DNA from: an uncultured Opitutales bacterium
Lineage (GTDB): Bacteria; Verrucomicrobiota; Verrucomicrobiia; Opitutales; Seribacteraceae
Assembly: GCA_943789375.1 (NCBI GenBank)
Contig: CALSTX010000002.1
Coordinates: 186,001 to 250,000 of the forward strand
DNA length: 64,000 nt
Direction: 5' to 3'
Position numbers and translations under genes: made by a program. Of the stretch, positions 31,118-59,313 are shown in pieces. The stretch's first letter is position 1. Every line of letters starts with the position of its first letter. The notes beneath the pieces were generated by a model. That model did no database searches and had not been told where the DNA came from. It saw only the letters and a list, made by a program, of their open reading frames with translations.

Positions 31118-31135
31118 TGTAATGTTCATTCACTC

Positions 31136-31990: not shown

Positions 31991-31999
31991 TATTTCCTG

Positions 32000-32531: not shown

Positions 32532-32855
32532 CTATTTCTCTGGATGAATCAACGGACCTAAGTCATCCTCTTGATTGGTGAACTCTAGGGACTTTTTGGA
32601 GTAGTTGTAAAACATTGGGATGCCATCGATATTCTTTATTAGATATAACCATTCACTGGTCTCATGTTTCCATAAGTAAGGCCAGACTTCCTCTTTGGTC
32701 CATAGCCATTCATAGCCCTCCAACCACAACCATAGCCCACCACTAAGATCTGGTTGAGCATGTACCCAATGGAGGGTTTCATGAAAGAGCCAACCGTTGT
32801 CGTAGGGCCTGAAACTTCCAAACCAATCAGATGTTCGCCATCCACCTTGGGATTT
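32532..32855 (-). other. Trp-rich C-terminal domain of gene B
   Basis: About 105 residues with more than a dozen Trp. Pattern: W...GSF...DNGWLFHETLHWVH, GLWLWLEGYEWLW, EEVWPYLWKHETSEWLYL. It is homologous to 44505-44800 and 57440-57753, always at the extreme C-terminus. Possible sorting or surface-anchoring domain by position. Confidence 0.75.
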
Positions 32856-33329
32856 CTTGACTTCGATGACAATGGGCTGCTTGTGTTGGTAACCGAATCG
32901 GTCCTCGACTACAACTTCCCCCCAATGCTCCCAGGAATCGCCCTCCAGCCAAAAGGGGATAGCCAATTCATATAACGTCCGTATGTAGCCATTTTCATCG
33001 ATCTCAAAGTGGTCAAATATTCCTTCTGCAGGTCTGAACATCAGATCGTCATCTCCCTGCAACTCTTCGTTTTCATAAAGAAACCAAAAGCTAGATCCTT
33101 GTGAAACACCATCCAAGGGGACGATTTGGGCTACAATACTGCCTGCAGGCAATCCTTCGGAGATTGAAATTCTGTTGGAGAAAAAACCATATGGATTCGC
33201 TTCCCTGTTATAGAGATTCATGATGTCCTTTTCGGATAAAGCCCGATCATACACCCTCATTTCATCGATAGAGCCATTGAAGAATTCATCGTTTCGATTC
33301 AAGGAGTTCGAGCCAATTACCAAGGGCAT
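32532..33329 (-). CDS. Giant gene B, C-terminal piece: LamG end, cadherin-like, Trp-rich tail
   Basis: 265 codons. It completes the third LamG module (FFNGSIDEMRVYDRALSEKD), then a cadherin-like repeat (ISISEGLPAGSIVAQIVPLD), then the Trp-rich domain from about 32,855: GGWRTSDWFGSFRPYDNGWL, HWVHAQPDLSGGLWLWLEGY, EWLWTKEEVWPYLWKHETSE. It ends with a polar tail. The Trp-rich part matches the tails of gene A and of the stub at 57.4 kb. Confidence 0.75.
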   Translation of the reverse strand: MPLVIGSNSLNRNDEFFNGSIDEMRVYDRALSEKDIMNLYNREANPYGFFSNRISISEGLPAGSIVAQIVPLDGVSQGSSFWFLYENEELQGDDDLMFRPAEGIFDHFEIDENGYIRTLYELAIPFWLEGDSWEHWGEVVVEDRFGYQHKQPIVIEVKKSQGGWRTSDWFGSFRPYDNGWLFHETLHWVHAQPDLSGGLWLWLEGYEWLWTKEEVWPYLWKHETSEWLYLIKNIDGIPMFYNYSKKSLEFTNQEDDLGPLIHPEK

Positions 33330-33342
33330 GGAGCCATCCGTA

Positions 33343-34290
33343 TTAAATTCCGTGTAATAAGAACCGAGGCTTTCCTGTATTCAAATAAACATTCCCATGG
33401 TTTCCATCATAGGTCACGACAAGTTGATTCCAGTTATTATACAAATTATTCGACCTAAAAACGAAATCGTTTCTCTCTCCTATAAGGGCTACTTGGTCTT
33501 TTCCTTTTCCATTCATTAAAAGGGAAAATCGTGCATTTCGAGATCTTCCGTTTCCAAAGGTAAACAGATTGCCAAAATGGCTAGGAGAATTGAACCAAAC
33601 GGAAACCGTACGAGGAGAGGATCCACTGGGCCAAGGACCATCGGCGACTATCTTGGATGATCCTTGGAAGTCAAAAGCACTCTCATTCTTTCCGAATCGA
33701 TCGGTTATAAAACCTGCTCCTCTTCCATAGTGAATTTTTCCTGCATATTCGCTGGTGACTTTGTTAGAAATAAATTCCGAGCGAGATAGTTCATCTCCGT
33801 TTGTGCCTTCAAAGTCATACCAGGCTAAAAGACCCATATTTTCACGGGATGAATTGTGATTATTGGGATCCGTTCCCAAAAGAAGTTCTTCTGTATTTGA
33901 GTATCCATCTCCATCCGAATCATTGGAAGCCCAGAACCTATATCCTTCAATATTATCACGAATCGAGATATAAACAGTCTGAGTACCTTCCATAGCTCCT
34001 AAAATAAGATCCGTGTCTGCCGAAGGAGGATAGCCAAAATAATGAACTTTTAATTCAAAGTGGTTCGGATCACTTTCAAAATCCAAAGCTTTACTAGTTC
34101 GAATATTACCGTCTTGATCGATGTAAAAGAACTCCGAGTCAGTCAGCAAAGATACATCGAGCCAATCTTCATACCAATTCGATAGGGCTCCGACAATGGT
34201 ATTAGCCGGTTGGTTTTCAAGGACATGAAACTCGGGTTCCTGGTCCGTTACGAAGATGTAAAAACTCATCGGTGTAATCGATTGGTTCAA
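33343..34290 (-). CDS. Giant gene B, third piece: cadherin-like, Ca-binding linker, LamG start
   Basis: 315 codons, continuing the polypeptide from the central piece. A cadherin-like repeat (FHVLENQPANTIVGALSNWY ... FYIDQDGNIRTSKALDFESD) is followed by a thrombospondin-3-like calcium linker (NDSDGDGYSNTEELLLGTDP) and most of a LamG module (MGLLAWYDFEGTNGDELSRS). The frame ends prematurely inside the LamG fold (YLNTGKPRFLLHGI); in the next frame it reads LGSYYTEFNTDGSMPLVIGS, the normal continuation. Not a separate protein. Confidence 0.7.
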   Translation of the reverse strand: MNQSITPMSFYIFVTDQEPEFHVLENQPANTIVGALSNWYEDWLDVSLLTDSEFFYIDQDGNIRTSKALDFESDPNHFELKVHYFGYPPSADTDLILGAMEGTQTVYISIRDNIEGYRFWASNDSDGDGYSNTEELLLGTDPNNHNSSRENMGLLAWYDFEGTNGDELSRSEFISNKVTSEYAGKIHYGRGAGFITDRFGKNESAFDFQGSSKIVADGPWPSGSSPRTVSVWFNSPSHFGNLFTFGNGRSRNARFSLLMNGKGKDQVALIGERNDFVFRSNNLYNNWNQLVVTYDGNHGNVYLNTGKPRFLLHGI

Positions 34291-37200
34291 GAATCAATCC
34301 CTCCGGACCATCGGGAGCACCCCAGAAATGAACTTGTAGTTCAAAGTGTTGGGGATCACTTTCAAAATCCAGAGGCTTATTGGTTCGAATGTTACCGTCT
34401 TGATCGATGTAAAAGAACTCATTGTGCTCCTCCGAAAAGAGGGAGACATCCAGCCAGTCGGGTTTGGTTCCAAACTGGTCTTTGACGGCAGAGCCGACAA
34501 GAGTATCAGCAGGGTCATTCTCCGATACTTTGAATTCCTCTACATCTTCGAGTTGAATTGAAAAGGCCTTCTCAATAGTCGCGTTATATTTATCCTTGGC
34601 TTGTATTAGAATATAATAAGAAGAAGCGTTGGATTCGTAGTCCAAAGAAGCTTCTGTTTTCAAGACTCCATCCGGGGATACTGTAAAAAGATTGTTATCT
34701 CGATCAGTTGGAGCCAGACCTTCCAAGTAGAAAACCTTTCCGGGATAAGAGAAGCCTAGCGGGCCAGAACCGGATGCGGAGAGAACAGAATTTTGTGCGT
34801 TTACGGCTTCTACGATTTTACCAACTGGATCAACTGCATCATCAGCAAAAAATCCTTTCGGAACCCAGATGGTTAAATCCGTATCCGAATACCATTTGGG
34901 TTTCACATAAGACTGCTGAAAGTATCGAATATGAATAGAGTAATTCATGTCGGAATCTGTTTCGAATCTCACTCCGCCTGCTTGGAGAACAGCTTTTGCA
35001 GAGTTCTCTGTCAGAGAGTAAGTAAGAATATCCCCATCGGGATCGGATGCACTAAATTGACCAACAATTGTCCCAATTGGTTGGTTTTCTTGGATGGTGT
35101 TATTGGAAAGAGCAAAGTCATTTGATCCGTAATTTCTTTGATACACAACCCGAAGAACCACCGAGCCAACTGCCCCTAGCCCCTCGTCTGGGAAAGAAAC
35201 CACTACCTTATTTTCATTTTGTACATAGTTGGCAGGCACACGAATAATCTTACAAGTTGCGTAGTCCTGCCCGTTATCCAATCGGATGGCTACATCTTCG
35301 TAAGGGACATTCAGTTCATTACCATTTAAGCTAATGTTAACGGCACGGCCTGTACCACTCTCTTTGGAGACTCCTACCCTTAACTCCGCGTACTCAATCA
35401 GCTTCAGGTCAGGTACTGAAACCGTAATTTCGCTCGTGCCCTCCACCGGTACCCGAATAGAATCACCGTAGTGTGGGATTTCATCTATCTCTTGGTCAAA
35501 TTTCAGGCCTTCGTAACCAAGAACCAACACGATTGATTCTCTACCCTTTATCTGCAGCGCATTTAGGTCACCCGCATCTTCCTCCAAGAAATAAGGAGTA
35601 AAGTCCAAATTTCTACCAAATCGCCTAGCCGTTTTAGTCGTGGGAGTAGGAATGGAAAGACTAAGGTTGTGAGTCGTATTGGAAAGATTGTTCAGCAAGA
35701 CATATACTTTATTTCTATTTGCAAAGCCCTGAATCTGTATATCTGGGTCAGGGGAATGAACTGAGATTCTTTCCCCACTGACATCTCTCATCAACTTGTA
35801 AAAGTAAATTTGCTTGGTTTCCACCCAATCATTTTTATCAGTAAAATTTCTCGGCACATATAGTGTGGCATAGTAGTGAGGATCCCAGTCCATACTATCC
35901 ATCAGGATGAATGGAGTCGCCTTTTTAACTACATGGGGATGATCCATAAAAACCATGGTGTTGGCAATCACACCGCTGACCATATTGAAGTCAATAATGC
36001 TTCTCTTTTTCATTTCCCACTCAAATCCCTCACCTGGAAAGTGCTTATTGGCCAATTCTTCCGCCAGTTCGACGGTCCCGTAGGCACCGTGCTCACTCAA
36101 CACTACATCCACCTCTTTCCCGTATTGGTTTGTGGTGTAGTTGGAAACCAAGTCCAAGACCGACTCCAGAGGCATACCGCTGGTTATTCTACCAGGGTTG
36201 GAAGGGTCATCACCCCCATCGAAACCACCATTACCCCTACGTAAAAAGTCGTATGCGTGGAAGGAGTAAAAATCCAGCTCGGCATTGGTACCATCAATAA
36301 ATGACTTCAATCCATCAAAGGCACCGTATTGGCTGTTATAATAATACGCGACGGACAAACACGGCCCACCCACAGCCACATTCAGACCCATTGCCTGAAC
36401 TGCCTGATGTGTCTTGGTATGCCACTGCTGGAAAAGTGGTTGATTCCAAAATGACCAATGAGGTTCATTTACCGGCTCATAGTAGGCGGGGCGGTCAAAA
36501 TCATTATATTTCCACTTAAGGGTATTTACGGATAGTTCCGCAGCCGCATCAATATTTGTAGGATAGTAATCATCTTCACCCGAATAATCGGTAAAACTCT
36601 TACCCATAAATTCGGGAAACGCACTCTTGTGCCCATGAGCAGCAATATCCAACCGTCCGCCGAAATCGATTTTGAATGCTTCGCCCGGCTCCTCTGGCAC
36701 TCCTTTGTCCTTAAGTACCTGTTTTAAGTATTCAATATCTGCAAATCCGGGCCGAGCTGTGTCTTCGCGAACTGCGTTGTCCCAACGAATCAACGGTTCA
36801 ACAACTCCAAGTCTTCTTCCTGGAGTAATACCCAATTCCTTAACCAGGTAATCATACCTTTCCTGAGACTTCACTCTTTGGTCAAATTTTGTGCCAGCAT
36901 CGCAAATACTAAAGTAAGCTTCCCTCCTTAGTTCACTTATTCCTCTGATTTGCCTTATGGTTTTAGGAACAACCGTAATGTTTACAGGCATTGAGGCAAC
37001 TGCTGGAACTAAATAGACAATAATCGTTTTTTCAATAAACCTGCCTTTGTCATCCGTAGCACGCACCCGGATGCTTTGTCTTAGTTGATCCGTTTCGTAG
37101 TCTAAGACATCATTAGTTTTCAAAATCCCTGATTCATCTAATTGGAAAAATGGATTTTCAGAGTCTCCTGCTTCACTGACCAAACTGTAAGTCAAATTTT

Positions 37201-39094
37201 CTCCATCCAGATCGTTGGACTCAAACTGAGTGACAACTGTTCCGATTTCCGCGCCACTGGAAACGATCAAACGGTCTTGGGAGTCCAGAATATTCTTGGA
37301 CGGAGAAACTTTTCGTAGAGCCAGACGAAATCCCACAAAATAGTTCCTGTCACCTTGGTTCGTGGCGTAGGTTCCCCTTCTGGCGGCCCTTAAGGTATCC
37401 GAATACCAGTCACCCCCACGCACATAGTGCTCTGAGTCGATGTCTTCAAAGTCCGGGTCAGTTATGTCACCATCTGGATAAACGCCGTACCAACCCATTA
37501 CCCATTCAGAAACATTCCCATGCATATCAAATAAGCCCCATGGATTGGGAGCATAATTGCCAACGGTTCTGATTCTAAAATCAATCCCTGTATCCCATTC
37601 ACCGTCCCAATTATAATTTGCCCGACTCGGATTTAATTCATTTCCCCATGAGTAAGCGGTATTTGTTCCAGCCCGGCATGCGAATTCCCACTCAGATTCG
37701 GAGGGAAGGGTAAATTCCCAGCCTGCTGAGACTAGATCAAGATGACTATTATTTAAGTACCTTAGGAAAACCTGAACATCTTGGTAGGAGACTCGTACGA
37801 TGGGCTTTTCGGGGTCTTTAAACGCTGAACTAACCGGGTTAGCATCCAGTCCATCGGTGTTACCTTTTATGACTGCCTCGTACTGAGCCTGAGTAACTTC
37901 AAACTTTCCTAAGAAAAAGCCTTTTGAGAGGGTTACATTGTGTTCGGGTTCATTGTGATGACCTGAAACTTCATCCCTTCTCCCTTCTTCCGTTTCTGGA
38001 CTACCCATGGTAAAGGTACCCGGGTCCACCCAGACCATTTCCAATCTGACGGAGGAGTTGAGTTCAACAATGTAATTTTCTCGGGATGGTTCGTAAACAT
38101 CTTCAACCATTATACGAATCGTCTGTTGGTCATATAATCCACCAGAGTCGGTTGCCCGCAAAGACACCTCGTAGTTATTGTTCTGGTCATCGTCCAGGGG
38201 GTTCTCGTAGTCAGCACTAAGAAAGGTCAGTTCCCCGTTAGCAGCATTTATAGTAAACTTGGCTGCATCCGCACCGCCGGTTATCGACCAAGCGAGCGTA
38301 TCCCCATCGGGGTCTATGGCGTGGTGGTTACGGTTGCCTTCGGCATCCGTCTTTACGATCCAGAAATCGCGGTCTCCCCGTCTTACTTCACTTTTGTCAT
38401 ACCCAATGCTTGACCAAGAATCACCGCCAACAAGATATCCACCATCAGATGTGGCGAGTATGCTTTCTCCCCAGTCATCCCAGGTGCCTCCCAAATTCTT
38501 GTCCCATAGTATACTTCCACGATCGTCGATTTTAAGTACCCAGTAATCTGAATTACCGTGACTTGCTTCGCTACGGTCCCCACTAGCACCTTGCCCCCAC
38601 GCCCGACCGACTAATACAAAGTTGCCATCATTCGTTGCTATAGCCGCGGTATTCCATTCATCTCCATTAGAGCTAAAAGTTTTATCCCACAGCTTTGTTC
38701 CATTTTCATCAATTCGTACAGACCAGTAACTATAATACCCCCCACTGGTTTCGCTCTTGTCCCCAGTTGCGTTCGACTCGGAACTACCAGTAAGCAGAAA
38801 ACCACCATCTTTTGCCGGAAGAAGTTTTGGGTGCCATTCATCTCCGCTTCCCCCAAAAGTTCTGTCCCATATTTTACTTCCATTAGCATCGGTCTTAATA
38901 ATCCAGAAATCAGATTTACCTCTTGAATTCTCGCTCTTATCTCCTGATAGGTCAGACAGCGAATATCCACCCAATAAATAACCTCCATCCGGAGTCGCTA
39001 AGATTTGTTTCAGGTTCATCCGCACCGCTTCCTCCAAAACGTTTGTCCCAAAGTTTGCTTCCATTGGCATCGGTTTTAACGATCCAAAAATCAC
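34217..39094 (-). CDS. Giant gene B, central piece: propeller 2, FGE-like, GH86-like, cadherin-like
   Basis: 1,625 codons. The first residues are out of the true frame; from LKQILATPDGGYLLGGYSLS it continues blade 4 of array 2. Then follow the second half of a cadherin-like repeat (LAWSITGGADAAKFTINAAN), a second FGE-like domain (38,045-37,315), a cadherin-like repeat, the GH86-like catalytic and carbohydrate-binding parts (36,970-35,130) and cadherin-like repeats (ALSNNTIQENQPIGTIVGQF). The frame breaks near 34,265 at a T-run, where the next piece resumes with FYIFVTDQEPEFHVLENQPA. Predicted role: binding and cleaving an algal galactan at the cell surface. Confidence 0.85.
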   Translation of the reverse strand: MIFGSLKPMPMEANFGTNVLEEAVRMNLKQILATPDGGYLLGGYSLSDLSGDKSENSRGKSDFWIIKTDANGSKIWDRTFGGSGDEWHPKLLPAKDGGFLLTGSSESNATGDKSETSGGYYSYWSVRIDENGTKLWDKTFSSNGDEWNTAAIATNDGNFVLVGRAWGQGASGDRSEASHGNSDYWVLKIDDRGSILWDKNLGGTWDDWGESILATSDGGYLVGGDSWSSIGYDKSEVRRGDRDFWIVKTDAEGNRNHHAIDPDGDTLAWSITGGADAAKFTINAANGELTFLSADYENPLDDDQNNNYEVSLRATDSGGLYDQQTIRIMVEDVYEPSRENYIVELNSSVRLEMVWVDPGTFTMGSPETEEGRRDEVSGHHNEPEHNVTLSKGFFLGKFEVTQAQYEAVIKGNTDGLDANPVSSAFKDPEKPIVRVSYQDVQVFLRYLNNSHLDLVSAGWEFTLPSESEWEFACRAGTNTAYSWGNELNPSRANYNWDGEWDTGIDFRIRTVGNYAPNPWGLFDMHGNVSEWVMGWYGVYPDGDITDPDFEDIDSEHYVRGGDWYSDTLRAARRGTYATNQGDRNYFVGFRLALRKVSPSKNILDSQDRLIVSSGAEIGTVVTQFESNDLDGENLTYSLVSEAGDSENPFFQLDESGILKTNDVLDYETDQLRQSIRVRATDDKGRFIEKTIIVYLVPAVASMPVNITVVPKTIRQIRGISELRREAYFSICDAGTKFDQRVKSQERYDYLVKELGITPGRRLGVVEPLIRWDNAVREDTARPGFADIEYLKQVLKDKGVPEEPGEAFKIDFGGRLDIAAHGHKSAFPEFMGKSFTDYSGEDDYYPTNIDAAAELSVNTLKWKYNDFDRPAYYEPVNEPHWSFWNQPLFQQWHTKTHQAVQAMGLNVAVGGPCLSVAYYYNSQYGAFDGLKSFIDGTNAELDFYSFHAYDFLRRGNGGFDGGDDPSNPGRITSGMPLESVLDLVSNYTTNQYGKEVDVVLSEHGAYGTVELAEELANKHFPGEGFEWEMKKRSIIDFNMVSGVIANTMVFMDHPHVVKKATPFILMDSMDWDPHYYATLYVPRNFTDKNDWVETKQIYFYKLMRDVSGERISVHSPDPDIQIQGFANRNKVYVLLNNLSNTTHNLSLSIPTPTTKTARRFGRNLDFTPYFLEEDAGDLNALQIKGRESIVLVLGYEGLKFDQEIDEIPHYGDSIRVPVEGTSEITVSVPDLKLIEYAELRVGVSKESGTGRAVNISLNGNELNVPYEDVAIRLDNGQDYATCKIIRVPANYVQNENKVVVSFPDEGLGAVGSVVLRVVYQRNYGSNDFALSNNTIQENQPIGTIVGQFSASDPDGDILTYSLTENSAKAVLQAGGVRFETDSDMNYSIHIRYFQQSYVKPKWYSDTDLTIWVPKGFFADDAVDPVGKIVEAVNAQNSVLSASGSGPLGFSYPGKVFYLEGLAPTDRDNNLFTVSPDGVLKTEASLDYESNASSYYILIQAKDKYNATIEKAFSIQLEDVEEFKVSENDPADTLVGSAVKDQFGTKPDWLDVSLFSEEHNEFFYIDQDGNIRTNKPLDFESDPQHFELQVHFWGAPDGPEGLILEPIDYTDEFLHLRNGPGTRVSCP
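35130..36970 (-). other. GH86-like (beta-agarase/beta-porphyranase) catalytic region in gene B
   Basis: About 610 residues. A TIM-barrel-like part starts REAYFSICDAGTKFDQRVKS, with GRRLGVVEPLIRWDN and EFMGKSFTDYSGEDDYYPTN. The putative acid/base Glu is in YYEPVNEPHWSFW (codon 36464-36466), DFYSFHAYDF follows, and the putative nucleophile Glu is in VVLSEHGAYG (codon 36092-36094). A beta-sandwich tail (VLLNNLSNTTHNLSLS) and a galactose-binding-like part (LRVGVSKESGTGRAVNISLN, VVSFPDEGLGAVGSVVLRVV) match the domain order of GH86 agarases and porphyranases. The substrate is inferred to be agar or porphyran. Confidence 0.7.
37315..38045 (-). other. FGE-like domain 2 in gene B
   Basis: A diverged copy of domain 1: LEMVWVDPGTFTMGSPETEE, LGKFEVTQAQYEAVIKGN, LPSESEWEFACRAGTN, PWGLFDMHGNVSEWVMGW, YVRGGDWYSDTLRAARR, FVGFRLAL. 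It also lacks cysteines in the RGGDW region. It lies directly before the GH86-like domain, separated by one cadherin-like repeat. Confidence 0.85.
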
Positions 39095-39591
39095 TCACCC
39101 CCTCTGCTTGTTTGACTCAGATCCCCGTCAGACCATGTGGAAGATGTTCCACCCAGTAAATATCCACCATCTGATGTATGAATAGCATCCGTGCAATATT
39201 CGAAGTGACTACCACCGTATGCTTTGTCCCATAATATACTCCCGTTTATATCGATTCGAACTACCCAGAAATCCTGATTACCCTTGTTCTGTGCAGTTCT
39301 GTCTCCCCCTGCTGGTGAGGTGGATCCTCCAAAAATGAGATAACCTTTTTCTGCAACTTCAATTGCACCGTTGCATCGATCTTCCCCACTTCCTCCGAAA
39401 GTGCGATCCCATACCTTGTTGCCATGGGCGTCCAGTTTTACAACCCAGTAATCTTTGCCTCCACGGCTATTTTGAGATTTGTCTGTTGAGGCATTGGATT
39501 CGGAGTATCCAGATAGTAAATAGCCACCATCAGATGTCTTGATGGTATCTGTTAGTCTATCTTCACCATTCCCGCCAAAAGTGCGGTCCCA
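38327..39591 (-). repeat. Seven-blade repeat array 2 in gene B
   Basis: Seven ~60-residue repeats of the same type as array 1, beginning WDRTFGG, WDRTFGG, WDKAYGG, WDKRFGG, WDRTFGG, WDKTFSS and WDKNLGG. Two indels (near 39,085 and 39,007) fall inside blades 3-4. Like array 1 it sits between the halves of one cadherin-like repeat (SDTITLSEST before, DPDGDTLAWSITGGAD after). Confidence 0.82.
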
Positions 39592-44415: not shown

Positions 44416-44510
44416 TGGGGGAAGATGTTATTGTGGGGAGTTGACAAGGTGAGTACCCTTTTATTTTTACTGTGAAATGACATCAGAAATCTACTTTACT
44501 GAGGTTATTT
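44280..44510. repeat. Duplicated gene junction, copy 1 (between A and B)
   Basis: The stretch from the start region of gene B back to the stop of gene A resembles 57265-57445 base by base in patches: TTCAAAATGTTGAAT at 44331-44345 and 57270-57284, ATTTTAG-ACTA in the minus-strand leader, and GTTGACAAGGTGAG (about 44440) against TTTGACCGGGTGAG (about 57386). It therefore carries the leader of B and the trailer of A, which the other copy repeats. Confidence 0.6.
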
Positions 44511-44800
44511 CGTAGAGAAGTTAAAAAAGATAGTTTGTTTACCTGGGTAAAGATAGAGCCAATCCCCTGTGTTGTCGGACCAAAAATAGGGCCAGACATC
44601 TTTTTGGGTCCATAGCCAGTTTTCCTGTTCCATCCACAGCCATATACCATCCTTTACATCCGATTGAGTATAGACCCAGCCAAGGCGGGTGTGATAGATC
44701 CAGTCGGTGTGTTCAAATCGTTGGAAGGTTCCAAGCCATGGAGATTGTATCCATCCATTTCCGGCATCCCGCATGGATGTCCACCAGGCATCGGGCTGGG
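44505..44800 (-). other. Trp-rich C-terminal domain of gene A
   Basis: About 95 residues: WWTSMRDAGNGWIQSPWLGT, HTDWIYHTRLGWVYTQSDVK, GIWLWMEQENWLWTQKDVWP, YFWSDNTGDWLYLYPGKQTI. Nearly identical in layout to the stub at 57440-57753 and related to the end of gene B. Confidence 0.8.
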
Positions 44801-47800: not shown

Positions 47801-50800
47801 TGCGAATCGTACGATTGGCATCCTCTTCATAGTCCAAGGAAGCGGTGGTGGAAATGGTTCCGTTTTCATCGATCACAAAGGATTCATTATCCAACCCATC
47901 AACAGACCGGTTCATCGGGATTCCCCACTTGGATGCTAGGTGATTTTCCAACCTTTCCATCTCCATCGCAGACTTTCCGTTCATCACAATCAATTCCTTG
48001 ATCGAGCCTCTAAGAAATCCATTGGGTGAGGAAAATTCATCCGCATAAAAAGCACCACCAATTGCAGATCTGTTCGAGCCCGAGTATGTGATCTCGCCCG
48101 TGTCAGCTATATTAGAAATGACTGCACCATTGTGTGCCAGAAATCGTCTTTCATCTTTCCGAAAAGCAGAAACCAAAAAGTAGTTTCCTTGAGATGTCGA
48201 AGTATTCGGTGCCGGATCATCAGTTCCATTTGTTTTTCTTATAGTAAAAGTTAATTTGAAAATACTATCATGCTGTCGAACACGCCAACCGGTAGAGGTA
48301 TTCATAGAGTCATACCCTGCTATTGAGTTAGCCCAGTCAGCACTCTGGTTCCATTTTGCCACCACTACTACTGCTGGTTCCTGCAATTCATGGAATGGGT
48401 CCTTAGATATTTGCATGATGTCGTTGCCATCGAACTCGATACGGTTGTTGATGCGAACGGGTTGGGCATCGGGGTTAGATTGGACCGCGTGGTTGCCCTT
48501 GCCACTAAGGTCGCGCCACTCATAAATTCTACCATCTTTTTCAAGGATGGAGTCGGTATTATTTGCATCCAACCAAAGGATTGCATTCGCCCCTGCCGTA
48601 CGCGACACCAGGTTGTATTTGAAGCTTTCATGGTTGTCTGTATCGGAGGTGGTGAGGGTACCCACTACGGTGCCTGCGTCGGCATTTTCCAATACGCTTA
48701 ATGCACCGGATATATTGGATGGTGCAGTGTTGGGGATGGACTCCTCATCGTTGGGGTCAGACCCGTAAGCGGTTTCTTCCGCATCGGAAAATCCATCATT
48801 GTCCAAGTCCTCATCCGCATCGCTGATGAATACCGGGTACGTCTTTTCGGAAACCAGTGCCCCGTTGCTCGTTGCCCGTACCGATATTTTGTACTCGGTG
48901 GCGTTGGTCTCATAATCAAACACCACAAGGTTGGATAGCGTGCCGTTCTCATCCATGGCAAACAGATGATTATGGTTGGATGAATTTGCCTCACTCAGGG
49001 AATAAGTATGCGATGCATTGTAATCGGCACTCACCTCCGAGATTGAACCAAGGTTCGTACCAGCTGCCTGCCCTTCGATCGATACGAATTTCTCATCATG
49101 ATTGAGTAGTTTATGATGGGGGTGATCATTAGGTAATTTTGCCTGCAATGCCCACTTGTGACTGAGGTAACCTTCTACCAACTGTTCGTCATCATAACTA
49201 AGTTTTTCTTCAAAAATTAATAATTCAGCGAGATGCAAAGAGAAATCTTGCCCTATTTTTAATGGCTCAGAAGGTAGTGAACCAATGCTACCACTCGCAC
49301 TTACTGATGCATTCAATGTACCATTAATCTTATTAGCAAAAGATCCATCACCGAAAGACATTACAAATAAACCGACATCATCTTTGAGGGATTGAGTCCT
49401 TAGATTTGCATCATCTTTGTAATAATTTGTGCCACCAGAATTTCTGGCTCTCATAAAATATAAAGGAGGATCATAATCTCCTCTTCGAACTCCAAAATGC
49501 CATGCTGTATCGGCACTGCTATTTATATTTGAAGTCTTACCCAAAACTCTTTTCCATGTTACATGGTTAACTATTTGGAATACTCCAAAAACATGCAGTT
49601 CAGACCATTCGTCAAAATCTGTCTCACTGTTTTCGATTTTCAAAGTCGATGAACTTAAGTCGACTCCTGGTTTGGAATTTATCAAAGAAGCTTTCCAATT
49701 TGGTCTTTTATGTGATTCAGTGATAGCATCGTAATTATTTCCACTTTGATCATACCATCTTGAGAATGCTTCTTTATCAGAAGTTAAAGGCTGATCGTCA
49801 GCATTTAATAAATTTGCTGGGTTACTTGCATCTAGCCAAAGCTTTAGATTTGAACTTATTTCTGTGACCAGTGGGAAACGATTTTGTTTTAGAACAATAC
49901 TTAGCGACCTTTCGAATGACTTGTTAAATGAATCAGCTACTCGTACCCGGATGCTCATCTGGGTAGCGTTGTTTTCGTAATCAAAACGATGGAGGGCTCG
50001 TAATTCGCCAGCCAAACTCATGGAGAATAGATCGTTGTAAGTATCTCCCCCACCGGAAACCAATTCAAAGCGGTGGAAATCACTTACATCCTCATCCTCG
50101 GCAATCAATTGACCGACCAATGAATTAACCACAGAATGTTCTTTGATTTTTAGACCAGTATCCGAGGAAATATCCGTGGGGGCATGATTAGTGGAATCAG
50201 GATTGTCCGGATTGGATCCATTGGCTAGTTCATCTGAGTTGGACAATCCGTCCCCATCCCGGTCTGGATCGGAATCATCTGGGGTGCCATCGTTATCGTC
50301 ATCCGGATCGGATGCATCGGCAATGCCATCCCCATCCGCATCTTCCAACGAATCACTAATTTGGATAACGAGTTCTTTTTCCACTGCGTTACCCTCTGTA
50401 TCACTCACGCGGATTCTCACCGTGTGGGAAACTGCGGTTTCATAATCAAAATATCGAGTGGGAATCAATTCCCCCGTTTCGTTCACATAAAACCTCGCAT
50501 TATCATCCGCTCCTTCACCGCTGACCAATTGGTAGGAATACTTTTCTGCGAGATCATAATCTCTGACATCCAACACCCCGACTGGTTTTCCCACCGGATG
50601 GTTCTCAAATATTTCGCTTGGGGTAAAAAGGGTAAAATCGGTATGCGGGCGGTTGGTGAAGTTTGCCTCTAAATTTTCATAACCACTGGGGGATGGGTTT
50701 TGGAAAAATGAATGAGTGCTGGGTAAATCCTCTTCCATGCCCCACTTGTGGGCAAGGTAGCCCTCGATAAGCTCCCGATCATCCTCAGGCAGAGCATAAC

Positions 50801-51992
50801 GGAAGATAAGGAGTTCCCCCCACCTGTAAGTGTTCCCAATCCGCACAGGTTCTTCATTAGGTAAAAGGCTGGGCGTTATATCATTGGTCTCCTTAATGTA
50901 TGAACCATTGGCGAAATATTTGAGAGTTGTACTTGGCCCATCGTACCAAACAGTAATGATTTTTGGGGATATATCGGCATACATGGAAAAAGACCCACTA
51001 AGCCTTGCAGCGTACCCAGAAACCTTAGGGTACCCCAACCATAAAGCTGCTCCTTGGCTTACTCCTGTATTCATCCTATCAAACGACCATCCAGATGGTA
51101 TATAATTACCAGCCCATGATGAATGTTTCCATATACCCGCAGTCCAATTAGAACTTGAAGTCCATTGGTAGACAAAGGCCATGGTCATACTATCCCACGC
51201 ATCAAAAGAGTTCTCAGAATTTTGCACAACCAGTGCATCTCCATCTGTACGGACTGAGGGGAAGTAACGGGAAAGTGAATTTTCTTCGTATTTAGACTGA
51301 CCGTTGCCCACCGCATGGTGCCCATATCCACTCTTGTCCATCCACATCCCAACGGACTCACCATCCTCGGGCAAATCATCAGCCATCTCCATATTGCTGG
51401 ACACTCGCATGGAGCCACGGTCTCCCGCATCGAGCCAGAGCATAAGCCCCTCATTGATAGAGACTGGGGAAAAGCGGACATCATCGATCAAGGAAACAGT
51501 GAATGACTTATCGAATCCCTGCCCGTAGGGATCGACCGCCCGGACACGGACCAGGTAGCTGGAAGCATTGTTTTCGTAGTCAAAGACCACGGCAGTGCGC
51601 AAACCACCCTCTTCATCTATGTGGAATAAAGCATTGTTGGTCGACCCTTCGCCATCCACCAATTCATAGGCGTAGCCAACGCTCCCATCCACATCCACAG
51701 GGGTAAGCTTGCCCACCAGGGTGCCGATGGGCTGGTTTTCCAGAACAGCCAAAGTTCCACTTGAGTTTAAGTCCGTGGGCGGGCGGTTGGTGGAGGTAGG
51801 ATTGTTGGGATCGGAACCATAGAGGGCTTCATCGGTATTGCTGAGGCCATCGCCATCTCGGTCGGGATCTGAACCATTGGGAATACCATCCCCATCGATA
51901 TCGGTTTCGAGGTGGTCTTCCACTCCATCCCCATCCAAATCCTCAAACACATCGAGCACGGTAAAGGTGAGGGCTTGTTGAGTAAGCCTCAT
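44505..51992 (-). CDS. Giant gene A, C-terminal piece: cadherin-like/LamG repeats, spacer, Trp-rich tail
   Basis: 2,495 codons; the first few (MRLT) are out of the true frame, which comes from the piece upstream. It opens with a long calcium linker (VFEDLDGDGVEDHLETDIDG), then alternates cadherin-like repeats (LAVLENQPIGTLVGKL) with LamG-like modules at MLWLDAGDRG (~51.45 kb), KLWLDASNPA (~49.85), ILWLDANNTD (~48.6) and SLWLDANASE (~47.45). Later repeats lack LamG. A low-complexity spacer (~45,400-45,125) precedes a fibronectin-III-like segment (FGTTYYYRAFARNKIGE) and the Trp-rich domain (DAWWTSMRDAGNGWIQSPWL to DWLYLYPGKQTIFFNFSTK). Exported, probably surface-bound. Confidence 0.88.
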   Translation of the reverse strand: MRLTQQALTFTVLDVFEDLDGDGVEDHLETDIDGDGIPNGSDPDRDGDGLSNTDEALYGSDPNNPTSTNRPPTDLNSSGTLAVLENQPIGTLVGKLTPVDVDGSVGYAYELVDGEGSTNNALFHIDEEGGLRTAVVFDYENNASSYLVRVRAVDPYGQGFDKSFTVSLIDDVRFSPVSINEGLMLWLDAGDRGSMRVSSNMEMADDLPEDGESVGMWMDKSGYGHHAVGNGQSKYEENSLSRYFPSVRTDGDALVVQNSENSFDAWDSMTMAFVYQWTSSSNWTAGIWKHSSWAGNYIPSGWSFDRMNTGVSQGAALWLGYPKVSGYAARLSGSFSMYADISPKIITVWYDGPSTTLKYFANGSYIKETNDITPSLLPNEEPVRIGNTYRWGELLIFRYALPEDDRELIEGYLAHKWGMEEDLPSTHSFFQNPSPSGYENLEANFTNRPHTDFTLFTPSEIFENHPVGKPVGVLDVRDYDLAEKYSYQLVSGEGADDNARFYVNETGELIPTRYFDYETAVSHTVRIRVSDTEGNAVEKELVIQISDSLEDADGDGIADASDPDDDNDGTPDDSDPDRDGDGLSNSDELANGSNPDNPDSTNHAPTDISSDTGLKIKEHSVVNSLVGQLIAEDEDVSDFHRFELVSGGGDTYNDLFSMSLAGELRALHRFDYENNATQMSIRVRVADSFNKSFERSLSIVLKQNRFPLVTEISSNLKLWLDASNPANLLNADDQPLTSDKEAFSRWYDQSGNNYDAITESHKRPNWKASLINSKPGVDLSSSTLKIENSETDFDEWSELHVFGVFQIVNHVTWKRVLGKTSNINSSADTAWHFGVRRGDYDPPLYFMRARNSGGTNYYKDDANLRTQSLKDDVGLFVMSFGDGSFANKINGTLNASVSASGSIGSLPSEPLKIGQDFSLHLAELLIFEEKLSYDDEQLVEGYLSHKWALQAKLPNDHPHHKLLNHDEKFVSIEGQAAGTNLGSISEVSADYNASHTYSLSEANSSNHNHLFAMDENGTLSNLVVFDYETNATEYKISVRATSNGALVSEKTYPVFISDADEDLDNDGFSDAEETAYGSDPNDEESIPNTAPSNISGALSVLENADAGTVVGTLTTSDTDNHESFKYNLVSRTAGANAILWLDANNTDSILEKDGRIYEWRDLSGKGNHAVQSNPDAQPVRINNRIEFDGNDIMQISKDPFHELQEPAVVVVAKWNQSADWANSIAGYDSMNTSTGWRVRQHDSIFKLTFTIRKTNGTDDPAPNTSTSQGNYFLVSAFRKDERRFLAHNGAVISNIADTGEITYSGSNRSAIGGAFYADEFSSPNGFLRGSIKELIVMNGKSAMEMERLENHLASKWGIPMNRSVDGLDNESFVIDENGTISTTASLDYEEDANRTIRIRATDPYGEVIEKELVVFLSNEVEDIDEDGIEDAIDEDADGDGINNETELDNGTDPYDDQSTNQLPTGISASGALTISENADAGTFVGNFTGTDPDSGQSLKFGLVADYPEHLSPSLWLDANASETLDLNRSYIMRWTDKRGGPSLIQDEENRQPQMTDLELNELPVVEFLGSDYMYSNGAFPLSPNFTMFAVAGFDWVNSESDSLVSYDSFSGGGFMQWDAGDKYRFKSRVWHHSYSGSLTSHKFYPQSDMGPALYQVSFDYEMGTIHGLLNGQSLGTTDYQTAVHPRHVLRLFANNDLNQFPKGFVAEFMVFDEGLSEVDRKLVESYLGEKWALPMHDPIEHPLFKMEQNGTLVTREELDFETDENHTITVRVFDEYNASYDKDFLVRVTNVVEDLDGDGIENHYDTDDDNDSISDDLDPDDDNDGFSDADELAYCSNPLDPNSVANAPPSLLKLSHVRFWENQPIGSVIAECNGTDPDSNASLSYKLITTDKETDHALFSLEQNGTLKNAAIFNFESNRTNYTLLIKVTDEHNASLLQELTLTLQDQNDAPVFTSPSENSLAVQFEIPENSTHIMQLQASDEDRDTLIFEKTGGFEQGLFDLNTTTGNLAFTHAPDFENPKDLTKENTYQVWVQVVDPKGEYDQKHISIRVKNVVEDMDKDGIEDHYDPDNDNDGFSDAEELAYGSDPFDPRSVANSAPTALTLSKSSILENQPVGTLVGKFTGTDPDNSSTLAYTLSKGPGDSHNSSFTIEADNQLISQKFFDYENSEHNFSVRIQVTDEHKASFSQAFIINLLNDPSDDTSPVLDDNKTEEPVTEPKDNDDHNTTLPPNLDDNKTIAPVIDQNTSDDLNNTEPPLIDQNKTENPIGPQPPVIDGNNSGVDDNKSQTDPPVLQPETLKYHPIVQTQEVTQNEKGIYVFKGRILTNAGVKLEEFGIEISDSFSFQTYKSYIAEPYGNTFHIKITDLAFGTTYYYRAFARNKIGESHGAPKRLKIPALPQPDAWWTSMRDAGNGWIQSPWLGTFQRFEHTDWIYHTRLGWVYTQSDVKDGIWLWMEQENWLWTQKDVWPYFWSDNTGDWLYLYPGKQTIFFNFSTK
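45125..45400 (-). repeat. Asp/Asn/Pro/Thr-rich spacer with repeated P-V-I-D-x-N motif in gene A
   Basis: Low-complexity stretch in the encoded protein with recurring motifs PVLDDNKTEEP, PNLDDNKTIAP, PVIDQNTSDD, PLIDQNKTENP and PVIDGNNSG. Probably a flexible, strongly acidic spacer between the repeat stalk and the C-terminal fibronectin-like and Trp-rich domains. Confidence 0.8.
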
Positions 51993-53325
51993 TGTGCTCG
52001 TCCTTCACCTCCACCCGGATGGACAGGCTCTGGGCACTTTCATAATCCAGAGGGGCGTTCAGACGAAGTTGCCCATCTGGCAAAAGAGAAAAACTGGCAT
52101 TGCCCGCATCCCCTTCCCCGCTGATGAGGGTGTAGGAGAGAACCGGGCGAAAATCCGAATCGGTAGCCACCAACTGGCCGACGATCGAGCCCACAGCGGT
52201 ATCTTCCGCTGCCTCCAATGTCCGGACGGAACGAATCTCCTCCGGGGCATTGTTTACGGAACCTGCATCCTTGGGGTCGTAGCCGAGGGAAACTTCCAGA
52301 GTGTTGCTCATCCCGTCGCCATCGATGTCGGGATCGGTGGAGTCGGTGGCACCGTCCCCGTCCAGATCATCCACACCATCGGTTATGGAAATAAGATGAG
52401 TGTTTTCAATGGACTGGTTGTTCTCATTGGTCGCACGCAAGAGAATGGACCGGGAGGTACCCAATTCATAATCCAACCGGGCGGTCGTGCGGAGGGTTCC
52501 ATTGTCGTCCACGCTAAACACATTTAGCGTGCGCTCGATGGGCAGGGCCCATTTGTGGGCAAGGTAGCGCTCCACCTCCTGCATCTCCAAGTCTCCCAGC
52601 GTACGGTCGAAAATAATCAATTCTCCAAGCTCACCCGTAAATCTGGAACTATTCCCCCCCTTACCAAACCTGCTTGCATTAAGGTCGGCCGAGGAGCGAA
52701 AAGACACAATTTCGAGGTTTTGCGGTGGCAAGGTCTGGGAGCCATCCACTTTTAACCCGCGGATAAAAGTATCTCCGCCCAGTACGGCATCGGCCGCAAA
52801 CCCGGTTGCCCAAAATGCCTCCCTGTTAGAGAAGAAGTGGGTGTTACTCACATCGCCCAGTAAAGGCCCCGTTGATCCATTCCGGCGAGCAACCGCCCAG
52901 AATACCGTGCGTACATTTCCAATCTCCTCAAAATCATGATAAGCCATGGGGGCCCCGTTGTAGTGCATCACCGAGTGACCGTTTTGGAAGTTTTTGAGAA
53001 TGGTGGGGAATCCCTGAGCGGATCCATTGCGGGTGGCATGGTTGTTGGATGAGCTTTTGTCCTGCCAGGTCTCCCCGGCGTAGTTCAACTCGCTTGCATC
53101 CAGCCAGAGCACCGGGTTTGCCGAGGTGGGCAGATGCGGGATTAATTCGTAGGACTTGATCGGGCTGGCACTATCCACCAATCGCTCAAACTGGCCAACC
53201 ACCGTACCCACAGCCGCATCTTCGGATACGGTAAGTGTACTCTTTGGTTTAAAGCTGGTAGCCGGCACCACCGGAGATGAACCATTCAACGGATCACTTC
53301 CAAGAATCGCTTCATCCAGCATCAC
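51943..53325 (-). CDS. Giant gene A, third piece: cadherin-like and LamG
   Basis: 460 codons. A calcium-linker end (EAILGSDPLNGSS) leads to a cadherin-like repeat (LTVSEDAAVGTVVGQFERLV), a LamG-like module (VLWLDASELNYAGETWQDKS, ending near VERYLAHKWALPIERTLN), a DLDGDGATDSTDPDIDGDGM linker and one more cadherin-like repeat that breaks at EVKDEHNEAYST; the next piece resumes with QALTFTVLDVFEDLDGDG. This part is clearly more G+C-rich than the rest of the gene. Confidence 0.75.
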   Translation of the reverse strand: MMLDEAILGSDPLNGSSPVVPATSFKPKSTLTVSEDAAVGTVVGQFERLVDSASPIKSYELIPHLPTSANPVLWLDASELNYAGETWQDKSSSNNHATRNGSAQGFPTILKNFQNGHSVMHYNGAPMAYHDFEEIGNVRTVFWAVARRNGSTGPLLGDVSNTHFFSNREAFWATGFAADAVLGGDTFIRGLKVDGSQTLPPQNLEIVSFRSSADLNASRFGKGGNSSRFTGELGELIIFDRTLGDLEMQEVERYLAHKWALPIERTLNVFSVDDNGTLRTTARLDYELGTSRSILLRATNENNQSIENTHLISITDGVDDLDGDGATDSTDPDIDGDGMSNTLEVSLGYDPKDAGSVNNAPEEIRSVRTLEAAEDTAVGSIVGQLVATDSDFRPVLSYTLISGEGDAGNASFSLLPDGQLRLNAPLDYESAQSLSIRVEVKDEHNEAYSTSPHLYRARCV

Positions 53326-53400
53326 TCAACCCATCCCCATCGATGTCCAAATCGTAATGGTCTTCCGTACCGTCCCCATCCAAATCCTCCACCACATTGG

Positions 53401-56400
53401 TTACTGATAGGTAAAGTTCTTATCGAAGGATACATTGTGATCATCCGTTGCACGAACCATGATGGTGTAGTTATGATCGTCGGTTTCGTAGTCAAAAACA
53501 TTGGAAACTAATAATGAGCCATTGGCATCCATAGAGAAAAGATGATTATCGAAAGATGTATCAATTCCTAGATTAGGTGCCATCGATTTTCGACCGTGCG
53601 AAGCAGGCAGTTTAGCCTGCAGATTCCATTTGTGAGCTAAATAGCCTTCTAGATCTTCAATCTCTTCCGAACTAAAACTATCTTCATATATTAAAAATTC
53701 TGAAATTTTTATTTGGTTTAATCCATTACCATTGGAAAAACCAGAGATGGTCACATCCAAGTTAGGTTTTGATATCAAGGATCCTTCTGCTGAGAAGTTT
53801 TGAGTAATTCTTTGCCCATTTAGTTTTAGAAATAAATTTCCTGAACAAAAACTCATAGAGAGTAATGATGGCCCAATTTTATCTACAGCGAATCTGTACT
53901 TACCAGTATCTGCGTAAAAGGCACCTTTGTTTGTTCTCAAAGCCGGGCCCCAAAGATCTAAATCTGCCCGATGACTATTAAGACTCCATGCAATATCACT
54001 AGTTTCATTGACCCATCCCGAAAAGTTTGTCTTACCAAAAAAGGAAGAAAAGTTATCCGAATTCGTCTGCTGAAGAGTAGCCAACACCGTAAGTTCACTC
54101 CATTCGTCGAATACTAGTTTACTGTTATCCAAATACATGGATGCATTTTGTAGAATTACCCCTGGCTTGCCATTGAATGTAGTAGCATTCCATACAGGAT
54201 TGTTACTGAGTTTTTTTGCATGATGACCATTTCCGGTTTGGTCATACCAAATAAATACATTCTCGTTTTTATTGGGGATTTCTCCGTCAATTGCACTTGT
54301 GGTAGAAAAATTCTCAGGATGACTCGCATCCAACCAAGTTTTCAAATTTCCTGTAGATAATATTCGATCCCCTTTCCGAACTAGTTGGTAATTTAATTCA
54401 CCTCCCTCCGGATCGGATGCATTAAATTCAACAATTATAGAACCAACACTTTCGTTTTCAGCTACTGAAACAGCACCCAAAGGGAACAAGTTTGAGGGTG
54501 GACGGTTGCTGGAGCCAGCATCCCAAGGGTCGGAGTTATAAGCAAGTTCCTCCGCATTGGTCAGTCCGTCCCCATCAATGTCTGTATCGTTATGATCTTC
54601 CGTTCCATCACCATCCAAATCCTCCACAACATTGGTAACAGAAATGGTAAATATTTTATCGAAGGATACGTTATGTTCATCCTTTGCACGCAGGATCAGA
54701 GAATAATTAGATTCACCTTCGAAGTCTAAATCTTGAAGAGTTGATAAGGTGCCATTTTCATCCAAAGAAAAATCGGAACTGGCGGATAAATTATTATCTA
54801 TCTGCCATTTACAGGCTAAATAAGATTCAATCCTAGATTTCTCATCTGGAGTATGCAGACCAGCAACAAACAAAAGCTCGGAAATTTTGTTTTGCCCATA
54901 TTTCCCATCACTATTTTTTCCGAGATAAAAAGAATTATTGCTATATTTTAGGATATGATGTGAAGAGAAATAGAAATACTCTCCATAGCTTACTTGGTCT
55001 CCCCTTGAGCCACTGTAAATTGTTCCACCTCTAACCCTACGGTAGGTTTCATAATCGCTCATGTAAGTAGATAGCGAGAGCCCACCTGAATACTGGTATG
55101 CAACATCCACTATACCTGAAGTTGAGGAGCCAAGATTTGCACGAGAATTCGAAAGAACTCCATACACAGTTATATCTCCTGATGGTTTGTAATTTGATAT
55201 TTGTAAAAAGTCTCCATTGAAGTAAACGCTTCGCTCAGTGCTGGAGTAAAAAGGCATGCGGGAAATATTGGTTTGAGTAGCATTTCTGTCATTACCACTT
55301 TTATCATGCCATTTTGTGACTCGACCATTTGAGATCTCCAAAGTGGATGTATCGGAAGCATCTAACCAAAGTTGAATATCAAGCCCATCTGGCAGTTTTG
55401 GAACTATCGAAATGCTTATGGATGAATTCCCGTCTGGATCGGTCGCATTAAACTCGCCAATCACGCTACCAATTACTGAGTTCTCGGCTATGGTTAGGTT
55501 ACTGGCATTGATATCACTGGGAGGGCGGTTACTGGAACTCGCATCCCATGGATTGGACCCGTACAGCACTTCATTCAGATTTGAAATTCCATCACCGTCG
55601 ATGTCCGTGTCATTATGATCCTCAATCCCATCACTATCAAAATCTTCAGAAATATTGGATATTGAAAAAGTAAACTTTTTATCAACTGACATATTATATT
55701 CATCAGTTGCCCGAATCGTTACACTGAAATTTTCATCGATCTCATAATCGAATAAACCTCTGGTTTTTAAACTGCCATTATCTTCCAATGAAAGTCCAAA
55801 GTTTGGGTAGGAAAAATTAGCAAAATCTCTGTAGGAATGCCCTTCAGGCAAAGAATCATTTAGATCCCATTTATCAGCTAGGTAGCCCTCAATCCATTGG
55901 GAATCGTTTAATTCAAATACATCATTAAACACGATAAACTCAGACAAATATAAATCAAATGCCGCAGGCCAGGAAGAATTTGCATCCCGACCAATGGATA
56001 AGGGAACATCTGGAGTACTTCTTATGATTCCATTTTCGGTTGTTTCAGACAGTAAGGTTCCATTAAATGCTATCTGCCTTTTACCTCCTCCAAAAGATAA
56101 TCGAAGAATACCCGCATTATGCAATGATCCAGAGCTTGTTTCTAAAATATCTGTTCCATTCGTATCACTTATTCGAAACCTGTAAGCAGGCGGACTCAGG
56201 TCGGGTCTTCGGGCCATAAAGTGCCAAGAAGACTCTGTAGACGAGTTTAACCCACCTGTTTTACCAAACCAAGTAGCCCATGTTCTGTAACGAACCTCCT
56301 CAACCACAGCAAATACCGTTAATTCGTTCCATCCATCAAATTCAACTGCACTGTTTTCTACAATCATTAGATCTTTACGGAAGGCTACTGTTGGTAAACC

Positions 56401-56754
56401 TCCATTAAATCCATCTGGTATGTAATCTGGCATATTGTAGTAAGATGGAAATTCAGTATCCTCAAAAGCTACCGCATGATGCCCATTACCAGTTCGGTCA
56501 AACCATGTACCTACAACTCCCCCATCTTGTGGATACCAACCAGTACCGTTTCGCTCACTCCGCATAAAGCGAACATCACTCGCATCAAGCCAAAGTTTCG
56601 GATCATACAATAAAGAAAATGTAATGTTCGTATCCCCGTCCGGATCGGTGGCATTGAACTCGCCGATTACGGTACCGATTGCGAGTTCTCCGCGATGGTC
56701 AGGTTGCTGGCATTGATATCGCTGGGCGGGCGGTTGATGGAGCTCGCATCCCAT
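53401..56754 (-). CDS. Giant gene A, second piece: cadherin-like/LamG repeats
   Basis: 1,117 codons; the first ~30 are out of the true frame. Three complete cadherin-like plus LamG-like units are seen, with LamG openings KLWLDASDVR (~56.6 kb), QLWLDASDTS (~55.35) and KTWLDASHPE (~54.35). Each ends near a (Y)LA(H/D/C)KW motif, followed by an FDYE-type cadherin end (LFDYEIDENFSVTIRATDEY) and a calcium linker (DFDSDGIEDHNDTDIDGDGI). The frame stops at NFTYQ near 53,400; the next frame continues VTNVVEDLDGDGTEDHYDLD. Confidence 0.82.
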   Translation of the reverse strand: MGCELHQPPAQRYQCQQPDHRGELAIGTVIGEFNATDPDGDTNITFSLLYDPKLWLDASDVRFMRSERNGTGWYPQDGGVVGTWFDRTGNGHHAVAFEDTEFPSYYNMPDYIPDGFNGGLPTVAFRKDLMIVENSAVEFDGWNELTVFAVVEEVRYRTWATWFGKTGGLNSSTESSWHFMARRPDLSPPAYRFRISDTNGTDILETSSGSLHNAGILRLSFGGGKRQIAFNGTLLSETTENGIIRSTPDVPLSIGRDANSSWPAAFDLYLSEFIVFNDVFELNDSQWIEGYLADKWDLNDSLPEGHSYRDFANFSYPNFGLSLEDNGSLKTRGLFDYEIDENFSVTIRATDEYNMSVDKKFTFSISNISEDFDSDGIEDHNDTDIDGDGISNLNEVLYGSNPWDASSSNRPPSDINASNLTIAENSVIGSVIGEFNATDPDGNSSISISIVPKLPDGLDIQLWLDASDTSTLEISNGRVTKWHDKSGNDRNATQTNISRMPFYSSTERSVYFNGDFLQISNYKPSGDITVYGVLSNSRANLGSSTSGIVDVAYQYSGGLSLSTYMSDYETYRRVRGGTIYSGSRGDQVSYGEYFYFSSHHILKYSNNSFYLGKNSDGKYGQNKISELLFVAGLHTPDEKSRIESYLACKWQIDNNLSASSDFSLDENGTLSTLQDLDFEGESNYSLILRAKDEHNVSFDKIFTISVTNVVEDLDGDGTEDHNDTDIDGDGLTNAEELAYNSDPWDAGSSNRPPSNLFPLGAVSVAENESVGSIIVEFNASDPEGGELNYQLVRKGDRILSTGNLKTWLDASHPENFSTTSAIDGEIPNKNENVFIWYDQTGNGHHAKKLSNNPVWNATTFNGKPGVILQNASMYLDNSKLVFDEWSELTVLATLQQTNSDNFSSFFGKTNFSGWVNETSDIAWSLNSHRADLDLWGPALRTNKGAFYADTGKYRFAVDKIGPSLLSMSFCSGNLFLKLNGQRITQNFSAEGSLISKPNLDVTISGFSNGNGLNQIKISEFLIYEDSFSSEEIEDLEGYLAHKWNLQAKLPASHGRKSMAPNLGIDTSFDNHLFSMDANGSLLVSNVFDYETDDHNYTIMVRATDDHNVSFDKNFTYQ

Positions 56755-57009
56755 GGGTCGGAATTATACGCCAGTTCCTCCGCATTGCTCAGCCCGTCCC
56801 CATCGATGTCCAGATCGTAGTGATCCTCAGTGCCGTCCCCGTCCAGATCCTCGACGACATTGGTACAGTTATGGTAAAGTTTTTATCGAAGGAGGCATTA
56901 TCGGTCGTCAAGGACCCTGACGATAAAAGAAAAATTACTGTCATAAGTTTCATAATCAATGAGTCCGGAAACCTTTAAAGTGCCATTAGTTTCAATAGAG
57001 TAAAAAGCA

Positions 57010-57273
57010 TTAGACACTAGGTAGGGAGAAACTGAAAATTCCCTCCCCGTCCGGATCGGTGGCATTGAACTCGCCAATTACGGTACCGATTGCGGAGTTC
57101 TCCGCGATGGTCAGGTTACTGGCATTGATATCAGTGGGGGCAGAATTTCCATTTAAATTGAATCCAAGTAGAAAAAAGGAAAACGCAAAGAACCAAGGGA
57201 GGGGAGCCCAAGAAAGATTAGAAATAGGAGACACCCATTCTTTTCGCAAAATATCAGAGAAAATAACCTTCAA
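57010..57273 (-). CDS. Giant gene A, N-terminal piece: export signal and first cadherin-like repeat
   Basis: The frame is open from 57849, but the upstream part reads through the wrong frame of the C-terminal stub. The homologous start with gene B is the TTG at 57273: MKVIFSDILRKEWVSPISNL, a hydrophobic stretch LPWFFAFSFFLLGFNLNG, then APTDINASNLTIAENSAIGT. It breaks at FSFSLPSV; other frames continue with NAFYSIETNGTLKVSG and FIVRVLDD, then FDKNFTITV and NVVEDLDGDGTEDHYDLDID across 57,010-56,760. Confidence 0.65.
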   Translation of the reverse strand: MKVIFSDILRKEWVSPISNLSWAPLPWFFAFSFFLLGFNLNGNSAPTDINASNLTIAENSAIGTVIGEFNATDPDGEGIFSFSLPSV

Positions 57274-57856: not shown

Positions 57857-58050
57857 ATCTTCTTTTATTACTCCTTTTGTAGATTATTCAATGGATAGAA
57901 TCAAGAGAGGGAAGCAGAAGTAAACCCATTCTGGTTGACTCCGGGAGAAAGCAGCGAGAGGGAATGGGATCGGGCGATTAGAGCTTGGAATCCTGCCGTT
58001 GACTTTAGGCAAAAAATAGAGATCATTGACCGCTTTCCCAATAATGCTCC

Positions 58051-59304: not shown

Positions 59305-59313
59305 GTCCTCTAA

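Follow-up and report, generated by a model that had tools for sequence, protein, structure and literature searches.

Giant adhesins of the cadherin type, such as CabC and CabD of Saccharophagus, BapP of Pseudoalteromonas, and SiiE of Salmonella, are large secreted proteins built from tandem cadherin-like repeats, and a passage of PMC12153261 states that the cadherin proteins CabC and CabD have carbohydrate-binding activity. Fibrillar adhesins, as outlined in a part of PMC8286594 that also names Opitutaceae bacterium TSB47 in a table row, likewise combine stalk repeats and adhesive domains on one long chain. We analyzed a 64,000-nucleotide stretch (the window, C2:186001-250000) of the 2.73-Mb draft genome, in 27 contigs, of an uncultured Opitutales bacterium, in which two giant genes, A and B, and a truncated third copy, X, form an array between purU and an FKBP gene. 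The products of A and B share the tandem cadherin-like repeats of CabC/CabD, BapP, and SiiE, but they differ from these proteins in having lectin-fold domains inside the cadherin repeat and a Trp-rich chain end. Unlike the fibrillar adhesins described in that part of PMC8286594, they carry adhesive-type domains along the stalk rather than at one tip, and their C-terminal domain has no established name. The Giant1-5 cluster of Apilactobacillus kunkeei belongs to a lactic acid bacterium and uses other folds, and no enzyme is mentioned in the portion of PMC12863079 concerned. Considered as a whole, the locus is probably best explained by giant lectin-studded cadherin fibres, of which A would capture polysaccharide and B would both capture and cut it.

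The array spans 32532-57846 (~25.3 kb), in agreement with the statement of the initial annotation that about 25 kb of the 64 kb is taken up by a gene pair, and all of its features described here lie on the minus strand. Delimited by open reading frames (ORFs) and domains, giant gene A (44505..57273; ~4,250 codons) has a TTG at 57273 as its candidate start and consists of frame-broken pieces at 57267-57010, 56754-53401, 53325-51943, and 51992-44505. Giant gene B (32532..44415; ~3,900 codons), delimited in the same way, starts at ATG 44415 or TTG 44334 and consists of pieces at 44415-39091, 39094-34217, 34290-33343, and 33329-32532. These pieces are minus-strand ORFs over most of 57267-44505 and 44415-32532, in the order A then B, which bears out the proposal of two giant tandem genes. 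The domain results come from the uncorrected pieces. Searches of these pieces with Pfam, NCBIfam, and PDB sequences matched cadherin, LamG_3, and TSP3, the last being a repeat of the calcium-binding type, so the cadherin-like/LamG vocabulary first noted by eye was recovered. The cadherin family PF00028 matched seven stretches in 44505-51992 (E 7e-63) and further stretches in other pieces. Several tandem cadherin repeats thus stand in one long protein, whose export is predicted from its start sequence, as in giant bacterial cadherin adhesins. No RTX family was among the Pfam matches at E 0.01 for the pieces scanned, and the chain end is the Trp-rich domain.

Besides cadherin and TSP3 repeats, A contains eight concanavalin-like domains of the WLDA type, and these lectin-like domains rule out its earlier description as a plain stalk of repeats. 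Those at 55858..56598, 54796..55374, 53617..54342, 52540..53112, 47913..48578, and 46788..47456 are nested in a cadherin repeat, and those at 50733..51440 and 49143..49844 lie between repeats without being nested. The single WLDA of B (43477..44055) is nested in its first cadherin repeat, and a structure model was made of this unit (43297-44208). The insertion site is one cadherin loop, between the strand ending in YSL and the strand FSIDENGTL. Both cadherin halves flank seven of the nine window copies, the gap from the N half to the C half is bimodal, and in the model the two halves re-form a cadherin. Concanavalin-like domains of predicted lectin fold are shown by this comparison and the model to be inserted in one cadherin loop. 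Pfam LamG was not listed as a match for the WLDA domains in the A pieces scanned; Pfam LamG_3 matched one WLDA copy of B (E 0.0049) and one at locus L067 of a relative (E 1.1e-9). In the giants of relatives, domains of two or more further kinds occupy the same loop. A count of four independent insert kinds was rejected because LamG_3 also matches the L067 WLDA copy, and three were counted. An unnamed domain of ~180 residues was seen in this loop at L067 (12612-13214 and 9447-10034, minus strand) and at L044:1304-1891; its copies are 49-55% identical to the first, with no clear Pfam or PDB match.

The propellers, FGE-like domains, and GH86-like enzyme originally ascribed to B were all matched through Pfam, NCBIfam, or PDB sequences. 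In addition to cadherins and the one WLDA, B contains two propellers, CylK- and SBBP-like, two domains with the fold of formylglycine-generating enzymes (FGEs), LamG_3, and GH86. Propeller 1 (41626..42915), with seven blade motifs, sits between an apparent cadherin first strand and the remainder of that cadherin; propeller 2 (38321..39591), with five blade motifs, is split by the frame break near 39091. One LamG_3 lies at 40735..41220 (E 7.5e-15) and another, split by a frame break, at 33222..33621. The FGE-fold domains at 39994..40677 and 37319..38041 matched PF03781 with E 2.2e-42 and 4.1e-47, and their PDB matches include PvdO, Treponema variable protein 1, and true FGEs. Formylglycine-generating enzymes have an active-site cysteine pair. 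FGE, PvdO, and TvpA share the PF03781 fold with the two domains of B, but these have a single Cys each and no catalytic pair, so a role as working sulfatase activators was discarded.

The GH86 enzyme of agarase/porphyranase type (35144..36952) matched PF18206 (E 1e-11), PF18040 (E 3.5e-9), and, over residues 737-1317, PDB 5ta1 (E 3e-25), with further alignments to 8h97 (E 9.4e-25) and 4aw7 (E 1.3e-16). Glu877 (NEPHW; codon 36464-36466) and Glu1001 (LSEHG; codon 36092-36094) of ORF 34217-39094 align with Glu residues of 5ta1, the second of which is Gln in 5ta0; we take these positions to be the GH86 catalytic pair. The catalytic region, beta-sandwich, C-terminal domains, and both Glu residues are those of the GH86 beta-agarase/porphyranase structures 5ta1, 8h97, and 4aw7, but the solved chains have 591-742 residues, whereas here the enzyme is one part of a ~3,900-residue protein that also has propellers and cadherins. 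PF18206 was found in one of 27 genus genomes (57-96% complete), and GH86 was rejected as a genus-wide trait; the match in the window was the sole positive control, and 14 control genomes were silent. Verrucomicrobiota of diatom blooms are described in part of PMC8857213 as consumers of sulfated methyl pentoses, and its main text makes no mention of the term GH86. A foreign origin was unsupported by base composition, as the G+C fraction is ~0.45 in the array and in the rest and 0.450 in the GH86 stretch. Across the pieces of A it runs from 0.40 (53401-56754) to 0.55 (51943-53325), with third-position values of 0.33-0.61, giving a patchwork-like appearance over 44505-56754.

Both genes end in the Trp-rich C-terminal domain reported at the outset (44508..44762 in A and 32592..32846 in B), and X has one as well (57455..57709). 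The structure model of the B tail is a 100-residue unit of ten strands with no helix of four or more residues (predicted local distance difference test score, pLDDT, 92.6), and the Trp-rich domain is thus modelled as all-beta. PEP-CTERM-like tails consist of a short C-terminal hydrophobic helix with a basic end, from which this unit differs. Pfam gave no family that matched more than three tails: on a set of 23 it gave OCRE in three (best E 0.0058), and on a set of 29 it gave DUF6600 in three (0.078), WW in one (0.00044), and OCRE in one, and the best NCBIfam value was 0.086, in one tail, all from tables without cut-offs. Varied passengers carry the tail at their C-terminus. It has 34 or 37 matches in this genome, and in a sample of the phylum it occurs in seven of 387 genomes. 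Relatives in named records are mostly metagenome-assembled genomes and other drafts of Opitutales, Opitutia, or Verrucomicrobia, many of them presumably marine. Two Trp-rich tails (L060:6927-8288 and 11115-12815) were seen on a contig labelled Deltaproteobacteria, possibly a spread beyond Verrucomicrobiota or a binning error. In the genome of the window itself, two tails and the stretch preceding them (L036 on contig C1 and L037 on contig C11) are identical over 249 residues, which may reflect a recent duplication or a repeat that was split.

In the mechanism we propose, A and B would be two exported, surface-held giant fibres in which cadherin repeats are linked by TSP3 repeats. The cadherin chain would serve as the stalk and its loop as a display socket, with several lectin heads projecting along one fibre, and the common tail would attach or sort the protein to the outer surface. 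From the domain content we infer that A may capture algal or agar-like galactan and that B may capture galactan and cut it at the cell surface. The giant-adhesin kind is already known, and what deserves further attention here is the loop socket together with the tail. A broader proposal is one of modular display, which we hold more tentatively and put slightly short of an even chance. In it, one cadherin loop would be a general socket for unrelated domains of ligand-binding type (concanavalin-like/LamG, C-type lectin, and the unnamed 180-residue domain), arranged serially along giant fibres; a new, lineage-amplified Trp-rich C-terminal fold would hold or sort dozens of proteins at the surface, and enzymes such as GH86 would be dropped into the chain when acquired. 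If true, this would explain how a bacterium with a small genome (2.7 Mb in draft) could equip a single molecule with an enzyme as well as numerous heads that bind sugars. It would also supply a candidate for the anchors that are missing in fibrillar adhesins, along with a natural repeat whose loop tolerates insertions and could be used by protein engineers, and the tail would predict the testable behaviour of dozens of proteins at once.

Several points weigh against the interpretation as lectin-studded surface fibres. Confidence in the model of the nested unit is middling, with 69 of 304 residues below pLDDT 50 and a shallow alignment, and the profiles of the N and C halves were trained on units of the window and of L044. 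Nesting was not shown in two of the nine window copies and in six of the 18 copies of a larger set, and the giant regions were picked for tails or long ORFs, so the figure of 19 of 92 does not hold for the genome at large. Some of the frame breaks could be genuine. In four of 29 and five of 23 cases, more than 60 residues separate the tail from the end of the ORF, and the tail could be a secretion signal rather than an anchor. This last alternative, in which an outer-membrane exporter reads the tail as it reads the C-terminal domains of type IX cargo, is the one that survives best and is a real, if lesser, possibility, since the C-terminal position and the variety of passengers are just as compatible with a sorting signal. 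Against it, no type IX C-terminal-domain family is among the Pfam/NCBIfam matches listed, and SprA (TIGR04189) was found in none of the 27 genus genomes, a weak argument as none of 14 controls matched either.

The breaks in A and B are frame changes within one coding path. At the last break of B, one LamG_3 is divided between 33343-34290 (profile 16-98) and 32532-33329 (profile 118-150); the domain runs across the break, so the pieces 34290-33343 and 33329-32532 are not separate genes, the outcome that would have told against the initial annotation. That annotation had suspected indels, and neighbouring genes agree: carB (27890-31114) runs through frames 2, 3, 1, and 2, and a gltX-like tRNA synthetase gene (25381-26915) through three frames, while each is a single ORF in the sister genome G421. 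Since these neighbours are broken here yet intact in the sister, sequencing error is the likeliest cause of the frame breaks. The two broken genes are also a handy gauge of sequence quality in the window. Gene decay, with genuine breaks and with A, B, and X as three stages of pseudogene formation from old giant adhesins, would account for the truncation of X and for at least four frame changes (by eye) within ~300 bases near 57010-56710. It would also agree with the unbroken state of some neighbours, as purU, the compared part of gltX, and six genes right of the array each give a single unbroken match. It is nevertheless improbable, because carB and the gltX-like gene are broken in the same manner, intact ORFs of 2495, 1774, and 1625 amino acids persist among the pieces of the array, and both Glu residues are kept in GH86.

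The initial annotation regarded A and B as a duplicated scaffold with a re-equipped middle. The shared export start on which this was partly based is present: the segment with this start and the first half of a cadherin lies at 57055..57273 in A and at 44116..44334 in B, and the two match at 59% protein identity, covering residues 6-100 of B. A search with the B head in 29 genomes (G421 not included) gave 38 rows, namely B itself, A, and 36 others. None of the others starts before residue 40, and 31 start no earlier than residue 60, so that they extend over the cadherin half and take in no more than the last part of the hydrophobic stretch; nothing else in these genomes matched the first 39 residues. 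The junction of tail, spacer, and next start is also repeated (44116-44888 and 57055-57835), with 72% DNA identity over 788 bp, which cannot be attributed to chance. The shared tail, by comparison, was set aside as proof of an A/B duplication because it is common across the genome.

X (57440..57835), upstream of A, retains only the last ~130 residues, including the Trp-rich tail, and has no head. The locus has two tandem genes, as first described, but three tails, one of them on this headless remnant. The X tail is 67% identical to that of A, and a tree of 49 tails joined the two (support 100/99) and placed the B tail elsewhere without support. The B tail is 41% identical to the A tail and up to 53% identical to tails of other records. 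A clade of the A, B, and X tails was neither shown nor rejected (approximately unbiased test, p-AU 0.211; 96 columns, bootstrap not settled). The duplicated start and spacer, the tandem layout, and the enzyme and propellers confined to B stand in favour of a duplicated scaffold; the ligand-type domains of A, the pairing of its tail with X, and the placement of the B tail do not fit an exchange of the middle alone, so B looks like a shared head on a different body and perhaps a different tail. The array may have originated by tandem duplication around the common head and spacer, with domains exchanged afterwards. The FKBP 5' flank is homologous to the sister genome as far as position 57846, and X begins at ~57835. 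X and the junction could be artefacts of a repeat-rich draft contig, as the genome is a draft in 27 contigs, the sister assembly breaks at the same locus, and repeats inside A are up to 95% identical; we consider this unlikely, because X and the A tail are just 67% identical, hence no mis-copied duplicate, and the spacer and head differ as well (72%). Least credible is the reading that the concanavalin-like domains sit between cadherin repeats with degenerate ends and that nothing is nested, which suits the two copies between repeats but not the paired halves around the other seven, the bimodal gap, or the model that rebuilds a cadherin.

The fibre genes appear to sit where most relatives have just a short purU-FKBP interval. 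The initial annotation had proposed looking for syntenic copies, and both purU and the FKBP gene were held by 12 of 20 fetched loci. In 11 of these 12, the genes are less than 2 kb apart without such an array between them; the twelfth, L067 (genome G020), has a tail-bearing cadherin giant of 3108 amino acids in this position. Tail-bearing genes stand at the other side of the block in L064, L066, L072, and L079. Seven of the 11 loci have an ORF of ~500 amino acids between purU and FKBP, and the one scanned (L076:7492-8985) is a sulfatase. Such an ORF was not seen in the corresponding interval of the window (31990-58051), where A, B, and X stand. At L062 of the sister genome, a gene divergent from FKBP (11472-12401), by eye a secreted beta-helix protein, reaches the contig end; it had no Pfam match at E 0.001 and none to the window pieces compared.

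The contig of G421 ends at this locus. With 12 of 57 candidates scored, no match of G421 to the large piece of A was found at E 1e-40; with 19 of 38 scored, the second piece of B was matched best across the FGE-fold region, at 45% identity. At the DNA level, the window is 95.7% identical to G421 on the right side of the array (57846-64000) and 81.9% and 79.3% identical on the left side (24288-32151), and this step in identity between the two sides suggests that recombination may have occurred near the array.

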